Source: Pseudomonadota bacterium (GTDB lineage: Bacteria > Pseudomonadota > Alphaproteobacteria > Dongiales > Dongiaceae). From it: a stretch of 64,000 nt of DNA. The notes under the pieces are model-generated. The model was not told the origin of the DNA. It did no database searches and worked only from the letters and a program-made list of their open reading frames with translations. The stretch is taken from positions 826,313 to 890,312 of the forward strand of contig JAJYUT010000002.1 in NCBI GenBank assembly GCA_021792365.1, written 5' to 3'. Every line of letters starts with the position of its first letter. Within the stretch, counting starts at the first letter, position 1. Below are positions 3,121 through 38,882 of this stretch, piece by piece. The translations under genes were made by a program, and so were the position numbers.

Positions 3121-3882
3121 TTACTCGGTTCCGTAGCCGAACGCGGCGATGATGGCCTTGGCCTCGTCGCCCTTCAGATACTCGAGGAACGCGATCGCGG
3201 ACTTATTGCTTTCGCCAGCCTTGAGCAGGACGGCGTCCTGCCTGATCGGCGTGAACATGTCCTGTGGGACGTCGTAGCGCGATCCCTTCGGCGTGCCGCC
3301 CGCACGCTCGATGGCCGATGTGGCGATGAATCCCATCTGTGCCGCCCCGCTATCGACCATGGAAAAGGTCTGGCCGATATTCTCCCCCATCACGATCTTT
3401 GGCTGGATGGTGTCCCACAGGCCCATCGCCGTCAACGCCTCGCGCGCCGCCACGCCATAGGGCGCGAGATCGGGATTGGCAATCGCGACATGCAGCGTGT
3501 CCGGCGCGGCGAGTGCGGCTTTGGGATCGTCGCCGATGCGCTCCGCATCCGGGCTCCATAAGGAGAGCCTCCCCACCGCATAGGTGAATCGCGTGCCCGC
3601 CACGGCGTTGCCTTCCTCTTCCAGCCTGGCCGGCGTCTGCGCGTCGGCGGAAAGGAGCACCGCGAACGGCGCACCCTCGCTGATCTGGGCATAGAGCTTG
3701 CCGGTGGCGCCGGTCGTCACCTGGAGCGTGTGGCCGGTATCCTGCGTGAACTGCTTGCCGATCGCCTCGATTGCGCCGGCGAAATTCGCCGCAACCGCGA
3801 TCAGGGCTTCGTCCGCCCGCGCGGAGCCCGTGGCGATCAGCAAAAGTGCCGCGAGCGCCAGACTATGAAGGCTGTGCTTCAT
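3121..3882 (-). CDS. modA: Molybdate ABC transporter, periplasmic binding protein
   Basis: The 253-residue product has a Sec signal peptide ending at SARADE and then the ModA fold: VAANFAGAIEAIGKQF near the N-terminus, TGATGKLYAQISEGAPFAVL with the Ser/Thr positions that ligate the oxyanion, and LADPDLAP-type text (IANPDLAPYG) in the middle. It captures molybdate or tungstate in the periplasm and delivers it to ModB. It is first in modABC. The perfect 26-bp inverted repeat 80 bases upstream is the expected place for ModE repression. Confidence 0.94.
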   Translation of the reverse strand: MKHSLHSLALAALLLIATGSARADEALIAVAANFAGAIEAIGKQFTQDTGHTLQVTTGATGKLYAQISEGAPFAVLLSADAQTPARLEEEGNAVAGTRFTYAVGRLSLWSPDAERIGDDPKAALAAPDTLHVAIANPDLAPYGVAAREALTAMGLWDTIQPKIVMGENIGQTFSMVDSGAAQMGFIATSAIERAGGTPKGSRYDVPQDMFTPIRQDAVLLKAGESNKSAIAFLEYLKGDEAKAIIAAFGYGTE

Positions 3883-3961
3883 TCCGGTTCTTCCAAGACG
3901 GCATATCCGATGCGTTGTATCCGATTGTATGTATCAAGCAGAGGCGAGGCGCGGTTGGCAA

Positions 3962-3987
3962 GCGATATATTCACCTAGATATATCGC
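3962..3987. promoter_or_regulatory. Perfect inverted repeat, probable ModE operator
   Basis: GCGATATAT and ATATATCGC form a perfect 9-bp inverted repeat with an 8-bp spacer. The TATAT/ATATA cores and outer CG resemble the known ModE site of other proteobacteria. It lies 80 bases upstream of modA and 86 bases upstream of the divergent RidA-family gene, so it could affect both. A modE gene sits at the far end of the same operon. The assignment to ModE is inference from motif likeness and context. Confidence 0.65.
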
Positions 3988-4072
3988 GTTTCCGCCGGGC
4001 GCGGGCTGGACAAGAGGCGTCCGGGCCGATCAAGCTTCGGCAGCGGAGATCAGAGCCAGGGAGATCAGCATC

Positions 4073-4558
4073 ATGTCGCGCACGCAAGCCAGGCTGACCG
4101 AGCTCGGCATCGCCCTGCCGCCGCCGATGCAGGTGCCGGGCGGAATGGCTTTGCCCTTCCCATGGGTCAATGTGCGCGGCGAGCGCGTCGTCATCTCCGG
4201 CCACGGCCCGCAGAACCCCGACGGGTCGCTCGCGGGTCCGTTCGGAAAGGTGGGCGCCGATGTCACTCTGGATGAGGCGCAGGAGATCGCACGCAAGGTC
4301 GGCCTGTCGATCCTCGGCAGCCTGCAGCGCGAGCTCGGCGACCTCGATCGTATCGGCGGCTGGGTGCGAGTGTTCGGAATGGTCAACAGCACACCGGGAT
4401 TCGATCGCCATCCGGCGGTGATCAACGGCTTCTCGGACCTGATCCTGGCAGTCTTCGGGTTGGAAACCGGCCGGCATGCGCGCTCCGCGATCGGCGTTGC
4501 TGGCTTGCCGTTCGACATCGCGGTCGAAATCGAGGCGGAGGTAGTGCTCGTGCGCTAG
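4073..4558 (+). CDS. RidA/YjgF-family protein
   Basis: The 161-residue product belongs to the RidA (YjgF/YER057c/UK114) superfamily: the core has VISGHGPQNPDGSLAGPFGK and ends in VEIEAEVVLVR, both typical positions. It matches the longer subgroup with a LGIALPPPMQVPGG-like opening. RidA proteins hydrolyse reactive enamine/imine intermediates, but this subgroup often lacks the arginine needed for that, so no activity is assigned. The start at 4073 follows an AGGGAG; an upstream reading to 3929 would run across the ModE palindrome and is rejected. It diverges from modA, and a terminator follows. Confidence 0.85.
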   Translation: MSRTQARLTELGIALPPPMQVPGGMALPFPWVNVRGERVVISGHGPQNPDGSLAGPFGKVGADVTLDEAQEIARKVGLSILGSLQRELGDLDRIGGWVRVFGMVNSTPGFDRHPAVINGFSDLILAVFGLETGRHARSAIGVAGLPFDIAVEIEAEVVLVR

Positions 4559-33553: not shown

Positions 33554-35035
33554 CTAGATGCCCATGCAGAGATACTTGACCTCGAGATAGTCCTCGATGC
33601 CGTATTTCGAGCCTTCGCGGCCGATGCCGGATTCCTTCACGCCGCCGAACGGCGCCACTTCGGTAGAGATGATGCCGGTGTTGATGCCGATGATACCGGA
33701 CTCGATCTGCTCCGCCACGCGCCAGACACGGCCGAGGTCGCGGGCGTAGAAATAGGCCGCCAGGCCGAATTCCGTGGCGTTGGCGAGCTTCACCGCCTCC
33801 TCTTCGGTCTTGAAGCGGAACAGCGGGGCGACCGGGCCAAAGGTCTCCTCGCGCGCGACCGCCATCTCCGGCGTCACGTTCACCAGGATCGTCGGCTCGA
33901 AGAAGCTGTGGCCAAGAGCGTGGCGCTTGCCGCCCGCCACCACCTTGGCGCCCTTCCCGACGGCGTCGGCGATGTGCTGCTCGACCTTCTCCACCGCCTT
34001 CATGTCTATCAGCGGTCCCTGCTGGGTCTCGCCCTTCAGGCCGTCGCCGACCATGAGCTTGGCAACCGCGGCGGTGAGCTTGGCGGCGAAGGCGTCATAC
34101 ACGCTGTCCTGCACCAGGATGCGGTTGGCGCAGACGCAGGTCTGGCCGGTGTTGCGGTATTTGGACATGATCGCGCCCTCGACCGCGGCGTCGAGATCGG
34201 CGTCGTCGAACACGATGAAGGGTGCATTGCCGCCGAGTTCCATCGAGGTCTTCTTGACCGACTTGGCGCATTGCTCGAGCAAAATCTTGCCGATCTCGGT
34301 CGAGCCGGTGAAGGTCAGCTTGCGCACGATCGGGTTGGAGGTCATCTCGCCGCCGATCTGAGTGGCGGACCCGGTAACCACGTTGAAGATGCCCGCCGGG
34401 ACGCCGGCGCGATGCGCCAGTTCCGCTAGCGCCAGGGCGGAGAACGGCGTCTGGGTCGCGGGCTTGAGGACGATCGGGCAGCCGGCCGCCAAAGCCGGGC
34501 CGGCCTTGCGGGTAATCATGGCGGAGGGGAAGTTCCACGGCGTGATGGCGGCGACGACGCCGACCGGCTCCTTGATCACCACGATGCGCTTGTCGGGCTG
34601 GTGGCCTGGGATCACGTCGCCATAGGTGCGCTTGCCTTCCTCCGCGAACCACTCGATGAAGGAGGCGGCATAGGCGACCTCGCCCTTGGACTCCGCCATC
34701 GGCTTGCCCTGCTCCGCCGTCATCAGGATCGCCAGGTCCTCCTGGTTTTCCATCATGAGGTTGAAGAGCTTGCGCAGGACGTTCGCCCGCTCCTTCGCCG
34801 TCTTCTTGCGCCAGCCGGCCCAGGCGGCGTCGGCCGCCTCGATCGCGCGGCGGGTCTCGGTGGCGCCCATGTTGGGAATGGTGCCAAGCACCTCACCGGT
34901 CGCCGGATTGGTGACGTCGATGGTCTTGCCGCTGTCGGCATCGACCCATTCGCCGTTGATGTAGCACTGCTGCCGGAACAGGCTGGGGTCCTTGAGCGAC
35001 AGCGCGGATGGCTTCTTGAGCGCGGCTTGCGACAT
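33554..35035 (-). CDS. gabD: NAD(P)-dependent succinate-semialdehyde dehydrogenase
   Basis: The 493-residue aldehyde dehydrogenase oxidises succinate semialdehyde to succinate in GABA breakdown. It has the GabD-type opening [40 protein letters not shown], the Glu in [20 protein letters not shown] and the catalytic Cys in [16 protein letters not shown]. The adjacent second Cys is also typical of GabD. It is monocistronic with a terminator downstream. The exact substrate could be a near relative such as glutarate semialdehyde. Confidence 0.9.
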
Positions 35036-35150: not shown

Positions 35151-35909
35151 TTAGATCGCGTCCTTCAATTCCCCTTCAGGATCAGGCTCGTGCCGGTCGA
35201 CGAGGTCGCGCCAGAAGGTCGTATCCTCGAATTCATAGGAGACTTCCAGTGGCCGATCGAACGTGCGCTCCCGCTCCTTCACCAGGCGGATGAGAGATCC
35301 CGCATCGCGGCGCTTGAGATCGAAGCTGTTGGCCTTGAGCCAGGTCTTCAGCGCCGCGGCCTCCTCAGCCGCCACGCCGCTCTGAACCGCCTGGGCCAGG
35401 ATGCGTTCCCAGGTGCGGTCCTTGTAATAGATCGATTGCGCGCTCTGCAGCACGCGGCGGCGCGCCGCCCTCGACAGCACGCCCGAAGCCCGCGCGCGCG
35501 ACAGGTTGGCACGCACATTGACCAGCGCCTCGGTCACCGAGGGATAGCCCAGCTCCGCCGGGCCGTGCAGCACGGCGACCTCGGCATCGTCGATGATGGA
35601 TCCGCAGCGATAGGCCCGGTAGATAGCGCCCACCCCCTGCATGCCGAAGGCCCACAGTTCCGCCGCCCGCAGGGCGCCCATGCTAGCCGCCCCGAACACA
35701 TGGATGCCCAGGGACATCGCCCACAGGATCTCCTTGTGCCAGACCGCCGGCTGCGCCTCGAAATAGCCGTCGATCAGGGCAATGGCGCGTGGCCCCTCGC
35801 GGGTGGCGCGATAAATGTCGCCCTCGGCCGCAGGCGGCAGATAGGTGAGCCCCGGCACATTGGAATCGGCGCGATCGAGCGATGGGCCGGCAAAAACGAC
35901 AATCGTCAT
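35151..35909 (-). CDS. tfuA: TfuA-like protein, partner of YcaO
   Basis: The 252-residue protein has the TfuA core: VVFAGPSLDRADSNVPG, YLPPAAEGDIYRATREGPRA, LIDGYFEAQPAVWHKEILWA, FGAASMGALRAAELWAFGMQ and DAEVAVLHGPAELGYPSVTE. TfuA proteins, first noted in the trifolitoxin locus, help YcaO enzymes install sulfur (thioamides) in peptide backbones, probably by delivering it. The ATG overlaps the YcaO stop (ATGA), so the two are coupled. It is the last gene of the three-gene operon that starts with the repeat precursor. Confidence 0.93.
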   Translation of the reverse strand: MTIVVFAGPSLDRADSNVPGLTYLPPAAEGDIYRATREGPRAIALIDGYFEAQPAVWHKEILWAMSLGIHVFGAASMGALRAAELWAFGMQGVGAIYRAYRCGSIIDDAEVAVLHGPAELGYPSVTEALVNVRANLSRARASGVLSRAARRRVLQSAQSIYYKDRTWERILAQAVQSGVAAEEAAALKTWLKANSFDLKRRDAGSLIRLVKERERTFDRPLEVSYEFEDTTFWRDLVDRHEPDPEGELKDAI

Positions 35910-37147
35910 GAAAGGCTCTGCTGGAAACGGCGCGCACGGTCTCCCAGAGCATAGTCCGGCGCGTCCTCCGGGTCGAGTTCGAGACCCGGCACCATCAGCC
36001 GTACCACTGGGATGCCGAATTCCTTCTTGGTCAGGTCGACCACGCAGACATGCCCGGCCCCGACCGCCTTCACGCGCTTCAGCAGAAATTTGAGATCGGA
36101 TTCGAAATCGCCCAGCGCTCCATCCGGCACCTCGTCGAAGCGGCGTGCGGGTATCCGGCTCTCCCACAGCCTGTTCGCCAGTTCCGAGATGCGCTGGTGC
36201 GCCGGCTCCTCGTAGTTGTGGCGCTTGAGGTCATCGCGCGAGCCGGCGATGTAGGTCAGGCGGGATTGCACCGCCTCGGTGATCCCGCGGGACAGGGCGA
36301 TACCGCGCGCGAGGTGGCACCCTGCGCCGCAAAACGCGCCGAGCGGCATGCGCGTGTTGCCCGGCCCCTCGCGCAGGCGCACGAAAAAGGCCGCGACGCC
36401 GACGTCGCTCGTCATGTCCCAGACCGACAGCATCATCTTCGCTTCCATCAGCCGGTCGATGAGTGCGCGGCAGTAGGGATCGTCGACGGTGTCGAGGTCG
36501 AGCCGCGTCGCCGCGCGAGAGACCCGCGGTCGCAGCGCCCACAGCGCGTTGGCATCGCGCTCGATGATCTCGTAGAGGCCGGCGCAGATCGCCTCCAGGC
36601 GGTTGTTGCCGGAGGCCAGGCCGTTGCTGCAGACCGGGAAGTCGCCGCTATGCGCATAGTCGCGCAGTTCGCGGCAATCGGTGTGGATGAGGTCGTACGG
36701 CACCCAGATGGACCGGCTGTCGAGCAGATCCTCCGCCTCGATCCACGGCATCTCGGTACGGTCATCGGCGGCTGAGTCATGCGACCGCGGGACGATGTCG
36801 AGATCCACCACACGGCGGCCCCGCTTCAGGGTGCGGCGGGAGTCGAGGGCGACAGGCAGGTCGATATGCTCGCCGTGAAACGTTTCGGCCGCCTCCATGA
36901 AGCCGGACGCGCGTGCGGCATCGATATCCAGCCCCTTGCCCTGCGCCACCGACAGGGCGCGGGAATTTGGCCGGCAGGCCATGACGACCGGGATGCCGAG
37001 ATAGTCGAGGCCGGTCACGTCGGCAAGGCGCGTGATCCCCATCGGGCCCGCACAACGACGAAATCGCGCCAGCGTTTCCGCTGGCGCGATTGCTCGATGC
37101 GTGCCGCGCAGATAGCCCTTAGGCGCGGCCTTATTCGGTGACTCCAC
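35906..37147 (-). CDS. ycaO: YcaO-domain ATP-dependent peptide-modifying enzyme
   Basis: The 413-residue YcaO enzyme activates peptide backbone amides with ATP. Its ATP/Mg2+ motifs are visible: SNGLASGNNRLEAICAGLYE followed by EIIERDANALWAL, and LSRGITEAVQSRLTYIAGSR; the end has VVRLMVPGLELDPED. Sequence and the fused context with TfuA put it in the thioamide-forming (TfuA-associated) class rather than the azoline class with a partner E1-like protein, none of which is present. The start is GTG at 37147, 15 bases after the stop of the precursor gene, with no clear ribosome site, so coupling is likely. Confidence 0.94.
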   Translation of the reverse strand: MESPNKAAPKGYLRGTHRAIAPAETLARFRRCAGPMGITRLADVTGLDYLGIPVVMACRPNSRALSVAQGKGLDIDAARASGFMEAAETFHGEHIDLPVALDSRRTLKRGRRVVDLDIVPRSHDSAADDRTEMPWIEAEDLLDSRSIWVPYDLIHTDCRELRDYAHSGDFPVCSNGLASGNNRLEAICAGLYEIIERDANALWALRPRVSRAATRLDLDTVDDPYCRALIDRLMEAKMMLSVWDMTSDVGVAAFFVRLREGPGNTRMPLGAFCGAGCHLARGIALSRGITEAVQSRLTYIAGSRDDLKRHNYEEPAHQRISELANRLWESRIPARRFDEVPDGALGDFESDLKFLLKRVKAVGAGHVCVVDLTKKEFGIPVVRLMVPGLELDPEDAPDYALGDRARRFQQSLS

Positions 37148-37162
37148 GTCGCAGGCGGTGGA

Positions 37163-37786
37163 TCAGGCGGCCTGCGGGTGGATGGCGCGTGCCGACCGGA
37201 CGCATTGGCGCGCGCTGCGCGACGGCTCCGTGCACTGACGCGCGCTGCGCGTAGGTTCGGTGCACTGACGCGCGCTGCGCGTGGGTTCGGTGCACTGCCG
37301 CGCAGTGCGCGTCGGCTCGACGCACTGACGCGCCGCACGCGTGGGTTCCACGCATTGCCGCGCGCTGCGGGCCGGCTCGACGCATTGCCGTGCGGCCCGG
37401 GCCGGTTCCGTGCACTGCCGCGCCTGCCGCACGCATTGGCGGCTCTGGCGGGCCGTGATCGCACGCGCATTGCGGTCGTCCGTGATGGCGCGGGCGTTCC
37501 GGTCATCGGTGATGGCGCGGGCGTTCCGGTCATCGGTGATCGCGCGAGCGTCGCGATCCTCGCTCCCGCCGAGTTCCATGACGAATTCGACGCCGATCAT
37601 GCGCGACTCACGTACGGCCTCGATCGTGGTCAGCTCTTTTTCAAGCATACCGAGAATCTCGCTGCCGCCGTCTTCCAGCGGGCTGCCGATCGCTTCGGCC
37701 GGGATCAGGTAATGCCGGCCGCGGATCTTGACCAGAATGTCGCCGACAGCGGGTTCCGCCTCCAGGGATTGTGTGCGCTCCACCAT
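37163..37786 (-). CDS. Candidate multicore RiPP precursor with tandem Cys decapeptides
   Basis: The 207-residue protein begins after a strong AAGGAGG. Residues 1-75 form a leader-like acidic/hydrophobic domain (GDILVKIRGRHYLIPAEAIG). Residues 76-111 are four 9-residue copies of DDRNARAIT. From 112 to 201 come decapeptides ARQC(T/V)EP(A/T/S)R(S/A/T): seven standard copies, the last degenerate ARQCVRSARA and a first broken copy; Cys recur every ten residues from 125 to 195. The two downstream genes are ycaO and tfuA, 15 bases away. The repeat design and Cys placement fit a precursor from which many short modified peptides are cut. No product like this is known to me. Confidence 0.8.
   Translation of the reverse strand: MVERTQSLEAEPAVGDILVKIRGRHYLIPAEAIGSPLEDGGSEILGMLEKELTTIEAVRESRMIGVEFVMELGGSEDRDARAITDDRNARAITDDRNARAITDDRNARAITARQSRQCVRQARQCTEPARAARQCVEPARSARQCVEPTRAARQCVEPTRTARQCTEPTRSARQCTEPTRSARQCTEPSRSARQCVRSARAIHPQAA
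37184..37453 (-). repeat. 30-bp tandem repeats encoding ARQC(T/V)EPxRx core units
   Basis: Nine units of 30 bases, each encoding a decapeptide with ARQC; seven standard units, the first and last are degenerate. Cys codons fall exactly every 30 bases from residue 125 to 195. Units differ mainly in third positions and at the residues T/V after Cys and A/T/S before the second Arg. The series is in frame with the precursor, so it is a coding repeat and not a CRISPR or satellite. Confidence 0.85.
37454..37561 (-). repeat. 27-bp tandem repeats encoding DDRNARAIT
   Basis: Four units of 27 bases encode EDRDARAIT once and DDRNARAIT three times, residues 76-111 of the precursor. They have no Cys and may act as a spacer or recognition stretch between leader and cores. 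The three full copies are nearly identical in DNA, which points to recent duplication. Confidence 0.85.
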
Positions 37787-37843: not shown

Positions 37844-37858
37844 TTAACCAGCGCTTAA
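37844..37858. promoter_or_regulatory. CtrA-type box upstream of the RiPP precursor
   Basis: TTAA-CCAGCGC-TTAA (TTAA-N7-TTAA) matches the full consensus for the alphaproteobacterial master regulator CtrA; the second half continues to TTAACCAT. It lies 58-72 bases before the precursor's start codon, in an AT-rich region with further GGTTA copies. That CtrA acts here is inferred from the motif alone. Confidence 0.45.
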
Positions 37859-37982: not shown

Positions 37983-38882
37983 TTAAATCCCGCAGAACCA
38001 CCGAATAGCGGTCAGAAACGCGGTCGGATTCTCGAACATCGGCATATGGCTCGCGCCCGGGATCACCGAAACCTTCGCGTTCGGCGTGACCGACGCGAAA
38101 TCGCGGTTCGCGGCGGGGGTCGATTCATCGTATTCGCCGCACACGAACAGGCACGGCACCGCGATACGCGGCAGCAGGATGCTGCCGTCATAGCCCTTGA
38201 GCGTGCCGGTGCAGGAGAACTCGCCGGCGCCCCAGAGTGTCCGCTGGAGCGTTCCGTTGAGCGTCCTAAATAAACGGGTGACCTCCGGCGGCTCCTCGCT
38301 CAGGCGGCAGAAATGGCGCTTCATCAAGACGCCGAGCGCGGCCTGATATTCCGGTGCGCTGGTGGTGCCGGCCGCCTCATGCCGGTCGAGCGCGATCTGC
38401 ACGTCGGCCGGCAGGGCCGCCTTGTGCGCGGCGTTATCGGCGACCCAGCGCGCGGTGCTGATGAGCGGCGAGGCGAAGACCGCGCCCTGCAGGCCGGGCG
38501 CACCGCGTGCGGCATATTCCACGGCGATGAGGCCGCCCCAGGAATGCCCGAGCAGAATGCAGCGATCAATGTCCAGCGCCGCGCGCAAGGCATCCACCTC
38601 CGCCACGAAGCGCTCAACCCGCCAGTTGCGCGGGTCGCCCGGCTTGTCGGATTCGCCGCAATCGAGCTGGTCGTAGAGGATGATCGTGCGCTCTTCGCTG
38701 AGCCTGGTCAGGGGCAGCAGATAGTCGTGGGAGCCGCCCGGCCCGCCATGAATGGCGATCAGCGGCGCGCGCGGCGACCTGAGGTGCCGGACCCCATCCA
38801 TGCGCCACCAGATGCGGCCGCCCGGCGCATCGGCGTAGCCGGCCCGTTCCGGTCCGCTCGGGGTGATGCTGGCAGCCAGCAT
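37983..38882 (-). CDS. Alpha/beta hydrolase of the proline-iminopeptidase type
   Basis: The 299-residue enzyme has the oxyanion motif IAIHGGPGGSHDYLLPLT, the nucleophile in ILLGHSWGGLIAVEYA (Ser), an Asp in CGEYDESTP and the His in IPGASHMPMFE. HGGPGG and the helical cap segment put it in the S33 family (proline iminopeptidases and tricorn-interacting factors), which release N-terminal residues, often Pro, from short peptides. It lies upstream of the RiPP precursor on the same strand, but 196 bases away with a separate promoter box between, so a joint role is only a possibility. Confidence 0.87.
   Translation of the reverse strand: MLAASITPSGPERAGYADAPGGRIWWRMDGVRHLRSPRAPLIAIHGGPGGSHDYLLPLTRLSEERTIILYDQLDCGESDKPGDPRNWRVERFVAEVDALRAALDIDRCILLGHSWGGLIAVEYAARGAPGLQGAVFASPLISTARWVADNAAHKAALPADVQIALDRHEAAGTTSAPEYQAALGVLMKRHFCRLSEEPPEVTRLFRTLNGTLQRTLWGAGEFSCTGTLKGYDGSILLPRIAVPCLFVCGEYDESTPAANRDFASVTPNAKVSVIPGASHMPMFENPTAFLTAIRWFCGI

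Follow-up and report, generated by a model that had tools for sequence, protein, structure and literature searches.

A three-gene cassette in a soil bacterium related to Dongia is a well-delimited multicore YcaO-TfuA cassette for a ribosomally synthesized and post-translationally modified peptide (RiPP), with a core for which we found no description. The cassette lies in a 64,000-nucleotide stretch of contig JAJYUT010000002.1 (the window). The genes for a 207-residue precursor (37163-37786), a 413-residue YcaO enzyme (35906-37147, GTG start) and a 252-residue TfuA protein (35151-35909, ATG start) form one minus-strand operon. Thioamidation is likely. In the reading we favor, to which we assign a probability of about two in three, this is a minimal multicore RiPP cassette in which each unit would gain a backbone thioamide and the array would be cut into many short RQC peptides. 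A sequence-only reading of this DNA had proposed three genes on one strand, and the open reading frame (ORF) list and the sequence confirm that 15 bases separate precursor from YcaO and that YcaO and TfuA overlap by 4. The Pfam matches bear out both enzyme identities (PF02624, 4.7e-76 for YcaO; PF07812, 3.4e-47 for TfuA). The YcaO is the sole one found in the genome assembly, and a Shine-Dalgarno-like AAGGAGGGG stands immediately 5' of the precursor gene.

The species-genome collection was scanned with patterns from the window YcaO, and two relatives were found: Dongia deserti (L007, YcaO 87% identical) and a metagenome-assembled genome (MAG) labelled Rhodospirillum sp. (L008, 85%). The precursor ORF is conserved in both. 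Neither Pfam nor NCBIfam gives a match to it at E ≤ 1. The earlier description of a 75-residue leader, seven decamers and degenerate copies at both ends was correct. All precursor features are on the minus strand. In the leader (residues 1-75; 37562-37786), 49 of the 75 columns are invariant across the three genomes. Four nonamers follow (residues 76-111; 37454-37561), one EDRDARAIT and then three DDRNARAIT; this second tandem repeat, ahead of the decamers, had been overlooked. A degenerate stretch, ARQSRQCVR (residues 112-120; 37427-37453), contains one RQC and leads into exactly seven decamers that fit [x]ARQC[TV]EP[TAS]R (residues 121-190; 37217-37426). The protein closes with a last degenerate unit and the conserved tail (SARQCVRSARAIHPQAA; 37166-37216), which reads ARAIHPQAA in the window. 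RQC occurs nine times in all. Tandem Repeats Finder reports the decamer array (period 30, 7.6 copies, score 191) separately from the nonamer array (period 27, 3.7 copies, score 128).

The AlphaFold model of the precursor has a mean predicted local distance difference test score (pLDDT) of 42.5. The leader is predicted with modest confidence as a beta-hairpin (residues 17-21 and 24-28) and a helix (41-59), with pLDDT 52-68 over residues 11-50. The nonamer region is a low-confidence helix (residues 81-125, pLDDT 36 to 58), and no structure is predicted for the decamers (pLDDT 31 to 38 from residue 121 on). An array without confident structure would also fit a repeat protein that stays unmodified while the neighbouring enzymes act on another target. 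We consider this highly improbable, and the organization of the cassette in the genus speaks against it. Precursor, YcaO and TfuA adjoin in three of three genus cassettes and are jointly missing from the same site in a fourth genome, and in other lineages, too, repeat precursors are found immediately upstream of YcaO. The strict linkage favors the RiPP reading.

The precursor is present in three of the four genomes of the genus and in none of the 13 other genomes of the order (17 genomes in total). The three cassettes occupy one shared site, and their YcaO sequences form one clade in the YcaO tree (100/100). The fourth genus genome (G011, 68% complete) has the same neighbourhood, consisting of an hpnE-like gene, an alpha/beta hydrolase and an aldehyde dehydrogenase. 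Its hydrolase and dehydrogenase are about 150 bases apart, and the cassette is absent between them. Because these flanking genes adjoin without it, the cassette comprises exactly three genes that were gained or lost together, and its neighbours lie outside it. The hydrolase (37983-38882) and the aldehyde dehydrogenase (33554-35035) of the window were therefore both rejected as cassette members.

The units themselves change between species. The D. deserti precursor has 187 residues with one nonamer and nine identical decamers, SARQCVEPTR. The MAG precursor has 118 residues with one nonamer and four RQC in a heptamer array that lacks EP. Alignment shows that the leader and the tail ARAIHPQA are conserved across the three precursors, and every unit of the three species keeps RQC unchanged. 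The comparison of unit number called for earlier thus gives seven decamers in the window, nine in D. deserti and four RQC in the MAG, with both number and sequence differing. The repeat protein stands beside YcaO-TfuA in every genus cassette, which excludes its absence from relatives, and the repeat reading frame is kept in both further genomes.

The differences between units identify what is being conserved. The window decamers vary only at positions 1, 6 and 9; A-R-Q-C, E-P and the final R are constant. Their differences fall mainly at third codon positions, and the proportions of synonymous (pS) and nonsynonymous (pN) differences are 0.58 and 0.16. The window nonamers give pS 0.68 and pN 0.05, and the MAG heptamers, counted without overlap as 3 units, give pS 0.69 and pN 0.04. 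In D. deserti, 98 pairwise differences among the decamers are all at third codon positions with zero amino-acid changes (pS 0.36, pN 0.00), and therefore the unit peptide itself is under selection. Among the three species, the ratio of nonsynonymous to synonymous substitution rates (dN/dS) of YcaO, TfuA and leader is 0.11 to 0.20. These data establish that the repeated unit peptide, rather than a DNA repeat, is conserved by purifying selection.

The enzymes were placed by profile and structure comparison. For YcaO, the McrA-thioamidation model TIGR03266 gives a higher score (214.6 bits, cut-off 365) than the azoline-forming SagD model (133.6 bits, cut-off 219.25), and TfuA scores 208.6 bits on NF033432 (cut-off 235.2). 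The best solved relative of YcaO is MJ1094 (3.6e-30), ahead of TruD (7.9e-19), and TfuA has a solved relative in 6xp8 (E 1.2e-31). Azoline-forming YcaOs carry PxPxP at the C-terminus; the motif is absent from the sequence of this YcaO. No E1-like, RiPP recognition element (RRE) or dehydrogenase partner for azol(in)e formation is encoded between the flanking genes. The missing PxPxP and the missing E1-like or RRE partner separate the cassette from the linear azol(in)e peptides. The adjacent YcaO and TfuA genes and the small leader-core precursor beside them place it with the YcaO-TfuA RiPPs.

These results bear on the idea that YcaO would convert the Gln-Cys of every unit into a thiazoline or a trifolitoxin-like chromophore with TfuA assisting, which would make the array a string of modified RQC sites. 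The invariance of RQC in every unit of the three species suits this idea, as does the resemblance of the core to the RQGC of trifolitoxin. The likeness covers four or five residues and was spotted post hoc, and the Gly between Gln and Cys is missing here. The lack of PxPxP and of a partner gene, together with a YcaO nearer to thioamidation than to azoline models, makes a thiazoline product unlikely.

Repeat precursors were sought at other YcaO-TfuA loci. Three overlapping genome samples contained TfuA: 21 of 385 genomes from the class, 8 of 17 from the order and 14 of 398 from the phylum. A further scan of the class matched 17 genomes, every one of them already among those counted. The regions upstream of YcaO at 151 loci, many of them duplicate places, supplied 752 ORFs (591 unique). 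In G005, from the same family as the window, eight DDDERAAVSVFAR-type units lie directly upstream of YcaO (L050, 4898-5416), with TfuA on the opposite strand. G101 has a repeat precursor with four exact DDSQRHAANFIGTTP units upstream of YcaO, and G093 has 20 units of a DADAGRWA[IV][ST]P-type core in the same position. Six units with an AGRYM[IV][TS]P core were found in G760 and seven with AGRYYVTP in G759, and GKQRFA units stand upstream of YcaO in G146 (three) and G329 (two). TfuA was confirmed at each of these seven repeat loci, which favors the RiPP reading, and pN is well under pS in every repeat array computed. A clear repeat precursor was not found at many further YcaO-TfuA loci. The search for ARQC-repeat proteins in YcaO neighbourhoods found none outside the genus: RQ.?C occurs in only 17 of the 752 upstream ORFs, which by eye are other frames or unrelated. 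On the sequence evidence, the cassette is part of a wider, little-described habit of alphaproteobacteria.

A second group of precursors has a core that varies from one copy to many. On Azospirillum plasmids, YcaO and TfuA accompany a precursor that has just one core, such as DHEAARVIITPGA. The motif [AGS]R..[IVT].P is present in 38 of 52 distinct precursors with RG[AP]DGxL[YF]; in the three that come from the order of G093 it occurs 6, 7 and 20 times. The AGRxxI[TS]P series, from one copy in Azospirillum to 6, 7 and 20, is a natural single-core-to-multicore series. In the YcaO tree, G093 groups with Azospirillum sequences at a support of 89/72, which is under the tree's own threshold. YcaO of the Azospirillum-cassette kind occurs in 60 of 82 genomes of the family containing Azospirillum (44 of 45 in genus g57), and the gene after TfuA encodes a Crp/Fnr-family regulator at all four annotated plasmid loci retrieved from Azospirillum (L127, L129, L130, L136). 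The multicore members of this series have a VRGPDGxLY leader and lie beside YcaO-TfuA at L059 (20 copies; G093; ORF 3561-4514, reverse complement), L139 (6 copies; 978-1382) and L140 (7 copies; 898-1362).

Kinship among these precursors was examined through their leaders and cores. RGADGRLY-type leaders share a family, since the Azospirillum set matches the L061/L064 leaders (hhalign E 2.1e-8) and these match the G101 leader (E 4.1e-5). A single leader family across all clusters, suggested by the visual motif GRxYx[VI], was rejected; profile comparison supports the RGADGRLY types only. The genus leader has its best hhalign match to the L058/L062/L065 type (E 0.016 to 0.024), with no significant hmmsearch match to other leader profiles. 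Against the Azospirillum set it gives E 0.2-0.47 and no hmmsearch match; the leader is short, and kinship could escape detection. Plasmids and phages gave no leader match at E 0.1. A whole-precursor alignment search of the 385 class genomes returned seven with matches, one of them the window's own genome. In the other six the match is confined to the model from position 78 onward (E 3.8e-8 to 6.4e-4), and these were set aside as Arg-rich low complexity. The cores ARQC and A[GA]RxxI[TS]P both have R, a beta-branched residue at +3 and Pro at +5, and were compared by permutation (SARQCVEPTR p 0.12, AARQCVEPTR 0.05, SARQCTEPSR 0.20, SARQCTEPTR 0.44). With p 0.12 for SARQCVEPTR, homology of the two units is not claimed. 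The architecture recurs across lineages; these comparisons did not establish common descent of the precursors.

Family knowledge suggests how the cassette would work. The YcaO-TfuA pair would bind the precursor leader, YcaO would use ATP to activate a backbone amide in every repeat, and TfuA would supply sulfide to give one backbone thioamide per unit. Cleavage by proteases encoded elsewhere would then release numerous copies of a short RQC-centred peptide from the array. ATP-dependent activation of the amide by YcaO and a presumed delivery of sulfide by TfuA are the roles described for the family (PMC5589413, PMC13174530). The most likely outcome is thioamidation of every unit by the pair, on the thiovarsolin pattern. 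Our guess is that modification may fall on the small residue (Ala, Gly or Ser) that directly precedes the Arg of RQC, on the model of two cases with the thioamide ahead of a basic residue: it sits between Pro and Arg in thiovarsolin (PMC6511847) and between Asn and Lys in the std peptide (PMC13174530). The RiPP interpretation offered earlier thus stands in part. The operon, the leader plus multicore array and the selection on the repeated peptide support it. The proposal that Cys or its neighbour is modified fares less well, RQC being invariant only within the genus and the units listed from other genera having no Cys. Cutting at the Arg-containing linkers is not supported, with no peptidase or transporter in the cassette.

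Several findings weigh against the thioamidated multicore RiPP reading. The three genes between the borders defined by G011 include no protease, transporter or immunity gene. The YcaO and TfuA scores lie under the model cut-offs. In the profile comparisons the genus leader appears unlinked to other YcaO-TfuA leaders, and the homology of the ARQC unit to the Azospirillum core went unclaimed. The missing peptidase and exporter would also suit a modified protein that functions uncleaved, such as a multi-site metal binder with thioamides beside Cys, and a unit number that varies freely between species fits a polymer of binding sites. No metal-related genes were seen in the cassette or its immediate flanks, and proteases may be encoded elsewhere in the genome. 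The single-core Azospirillum versions argue against a need for many sites there, homology with them not being shown. We regard a whole-protein function as improbable. A broader proposal is a long shot: alphaproteobacterial YcaO-TfuA might be a general device for repeated thioamidated peptides whose cores are replaced and multiplied, and each unit here might pair a thioamide with the neighbouring Cys (or carry a trifolitoxin-like RQC chromophore), possibly in a whole multi-site metal binder.

The precursor promoter region contains a palindromic TTAA-N7-TTAA box (37844-37858, minus strand), which we take to resemble a CtrA site. A pattern scan gave this as the sole match in the window (0.01 expected). 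D. deserti retains the box and the MAG has an imperfect copy. Among 66 distinct regions upstream of precursors it occurs in two only, both from the genus of the window. Across the genome, TTAA-N7-TTAAC was matched 21 times, with palindromes counted on both strands, and a reversed control 9 times. The possible CtrA-like box is a lead only. A promoter-like site overlaps the box (one found, 0.4 expected) and two terminator-like sites were found (1.4 expected), both counts near chance. The G+C content of the enzyme genes has no clear foreign signature.

Other precursor types were observed beside YcaO-TfuA. The Azospirillum family has a second YcaO-TfuA set (L185, L186, L197, L199) with precursors of 174, 372, 385 and 387 residues and Nif11-like leaders, the one precursor tested giving a Pfam match below the cut-off (E 0.062). 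Long tandem repeats (e.g. GIFAGQPAA, PATAMPAS) occur in these precursors, which either lie 5' of the search position ahead of YcaO-TfuA or overlap it. A precursor type of about 74 residues with an invariant CYL[IV]D near the C-terminus occurs at L058, L062, L065 and L190, and a doubled GATCY motif lies near the precursor C-terminus at L184. A putative 225-residue frame with IAAGQ/IAGG-type pentamers lies about 300 bases upstream of YcaO-TfuA at L072 (G066; 3621-4298, reverse complement).

The earlier reading knew of no described product with this core, which agrees with our literature search: no title or abstract describing these precursors was found, most subscription journals being outside its coverage. 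In 2021 all known YcaO-TfuA RiPPs were described as actinobacterial, and more than a thousand proteobacterial TfuA clusters were counted, among which loci like the window's may be listed unnamed (PMC8120280); the main text of that article contains neither 'repeat' nor 'Dongia'. A 2026 preprint gives the characterized YcaO-TfuA RiPPs as thioviridamide-like compounds, thiovarsolins, thioamidated thiopeptides, chimeric lanthipeptides and the std peptide (PMC13174530).

The thiovarsolin system resembles the cassette: its precursor joins a leader to a core repeated up to five times, YcaO and TfuA are both present, and varA, varY and varT of Streptomyces varsoviensis alone gave a thioamidated peptide from the repeating precursor (PMC6511847). 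The thiovarsolin core is APR, in contrast to ARQC[TV]EPxR or DDRNARAIT, and the window precursor has no APR or GPR. The var cluster is actinobacterial and has further genes (oxidase, ligase, and amidinotransferase in some), whereas the window cassette is alphaproteobacterial with three genes. Trifolitoxin of Rhizobium leguminosarum bv. trifolii (tfxABCDEFG and tfuA) is an alphaproteobacterial RiPP in which TfuA is implicated (PMC8816728, PMC4603692). Its core SRQGCVA has a striking but short likeness to SRQCV/ARQCV, which lack the Gly (PMC8816728). Trifolitoxin has a single core, a seven-gene cassette, a thiazoline and a chromophore; the cassette here is multicore and has three genes. No further genes like tfxB-tfxG lie between hydrolase and dehydrogenase, the tfx genes themselves not having been compared. 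The three-gene cassette, with natural variants of 4 to 9 RQC units, is a small, clean alphaproteobacterial test case.

The YcaO and TfuA that thioamidate McrA in methanogens are homologous to the window's, but that pair acts on a large enzyme rather than a repeat precursor, and the window proteins score below the equivalog cut-offs. The Azospirillum-type cassettes, with RGADGRLY leaders, share the gene order of the window cassette and a YcaO 43-50% identical to its own, and differ from it in leader and in the core A[GA]RxxI[TS]P. That core is single in Azospirillum, and three genomes from a different order have 6, 7 or 20 copies. The range of core numbers (1, 6, 7 and 20) within the RGADGRLY-type leader family opens the origin of multicore precursors to direct study.

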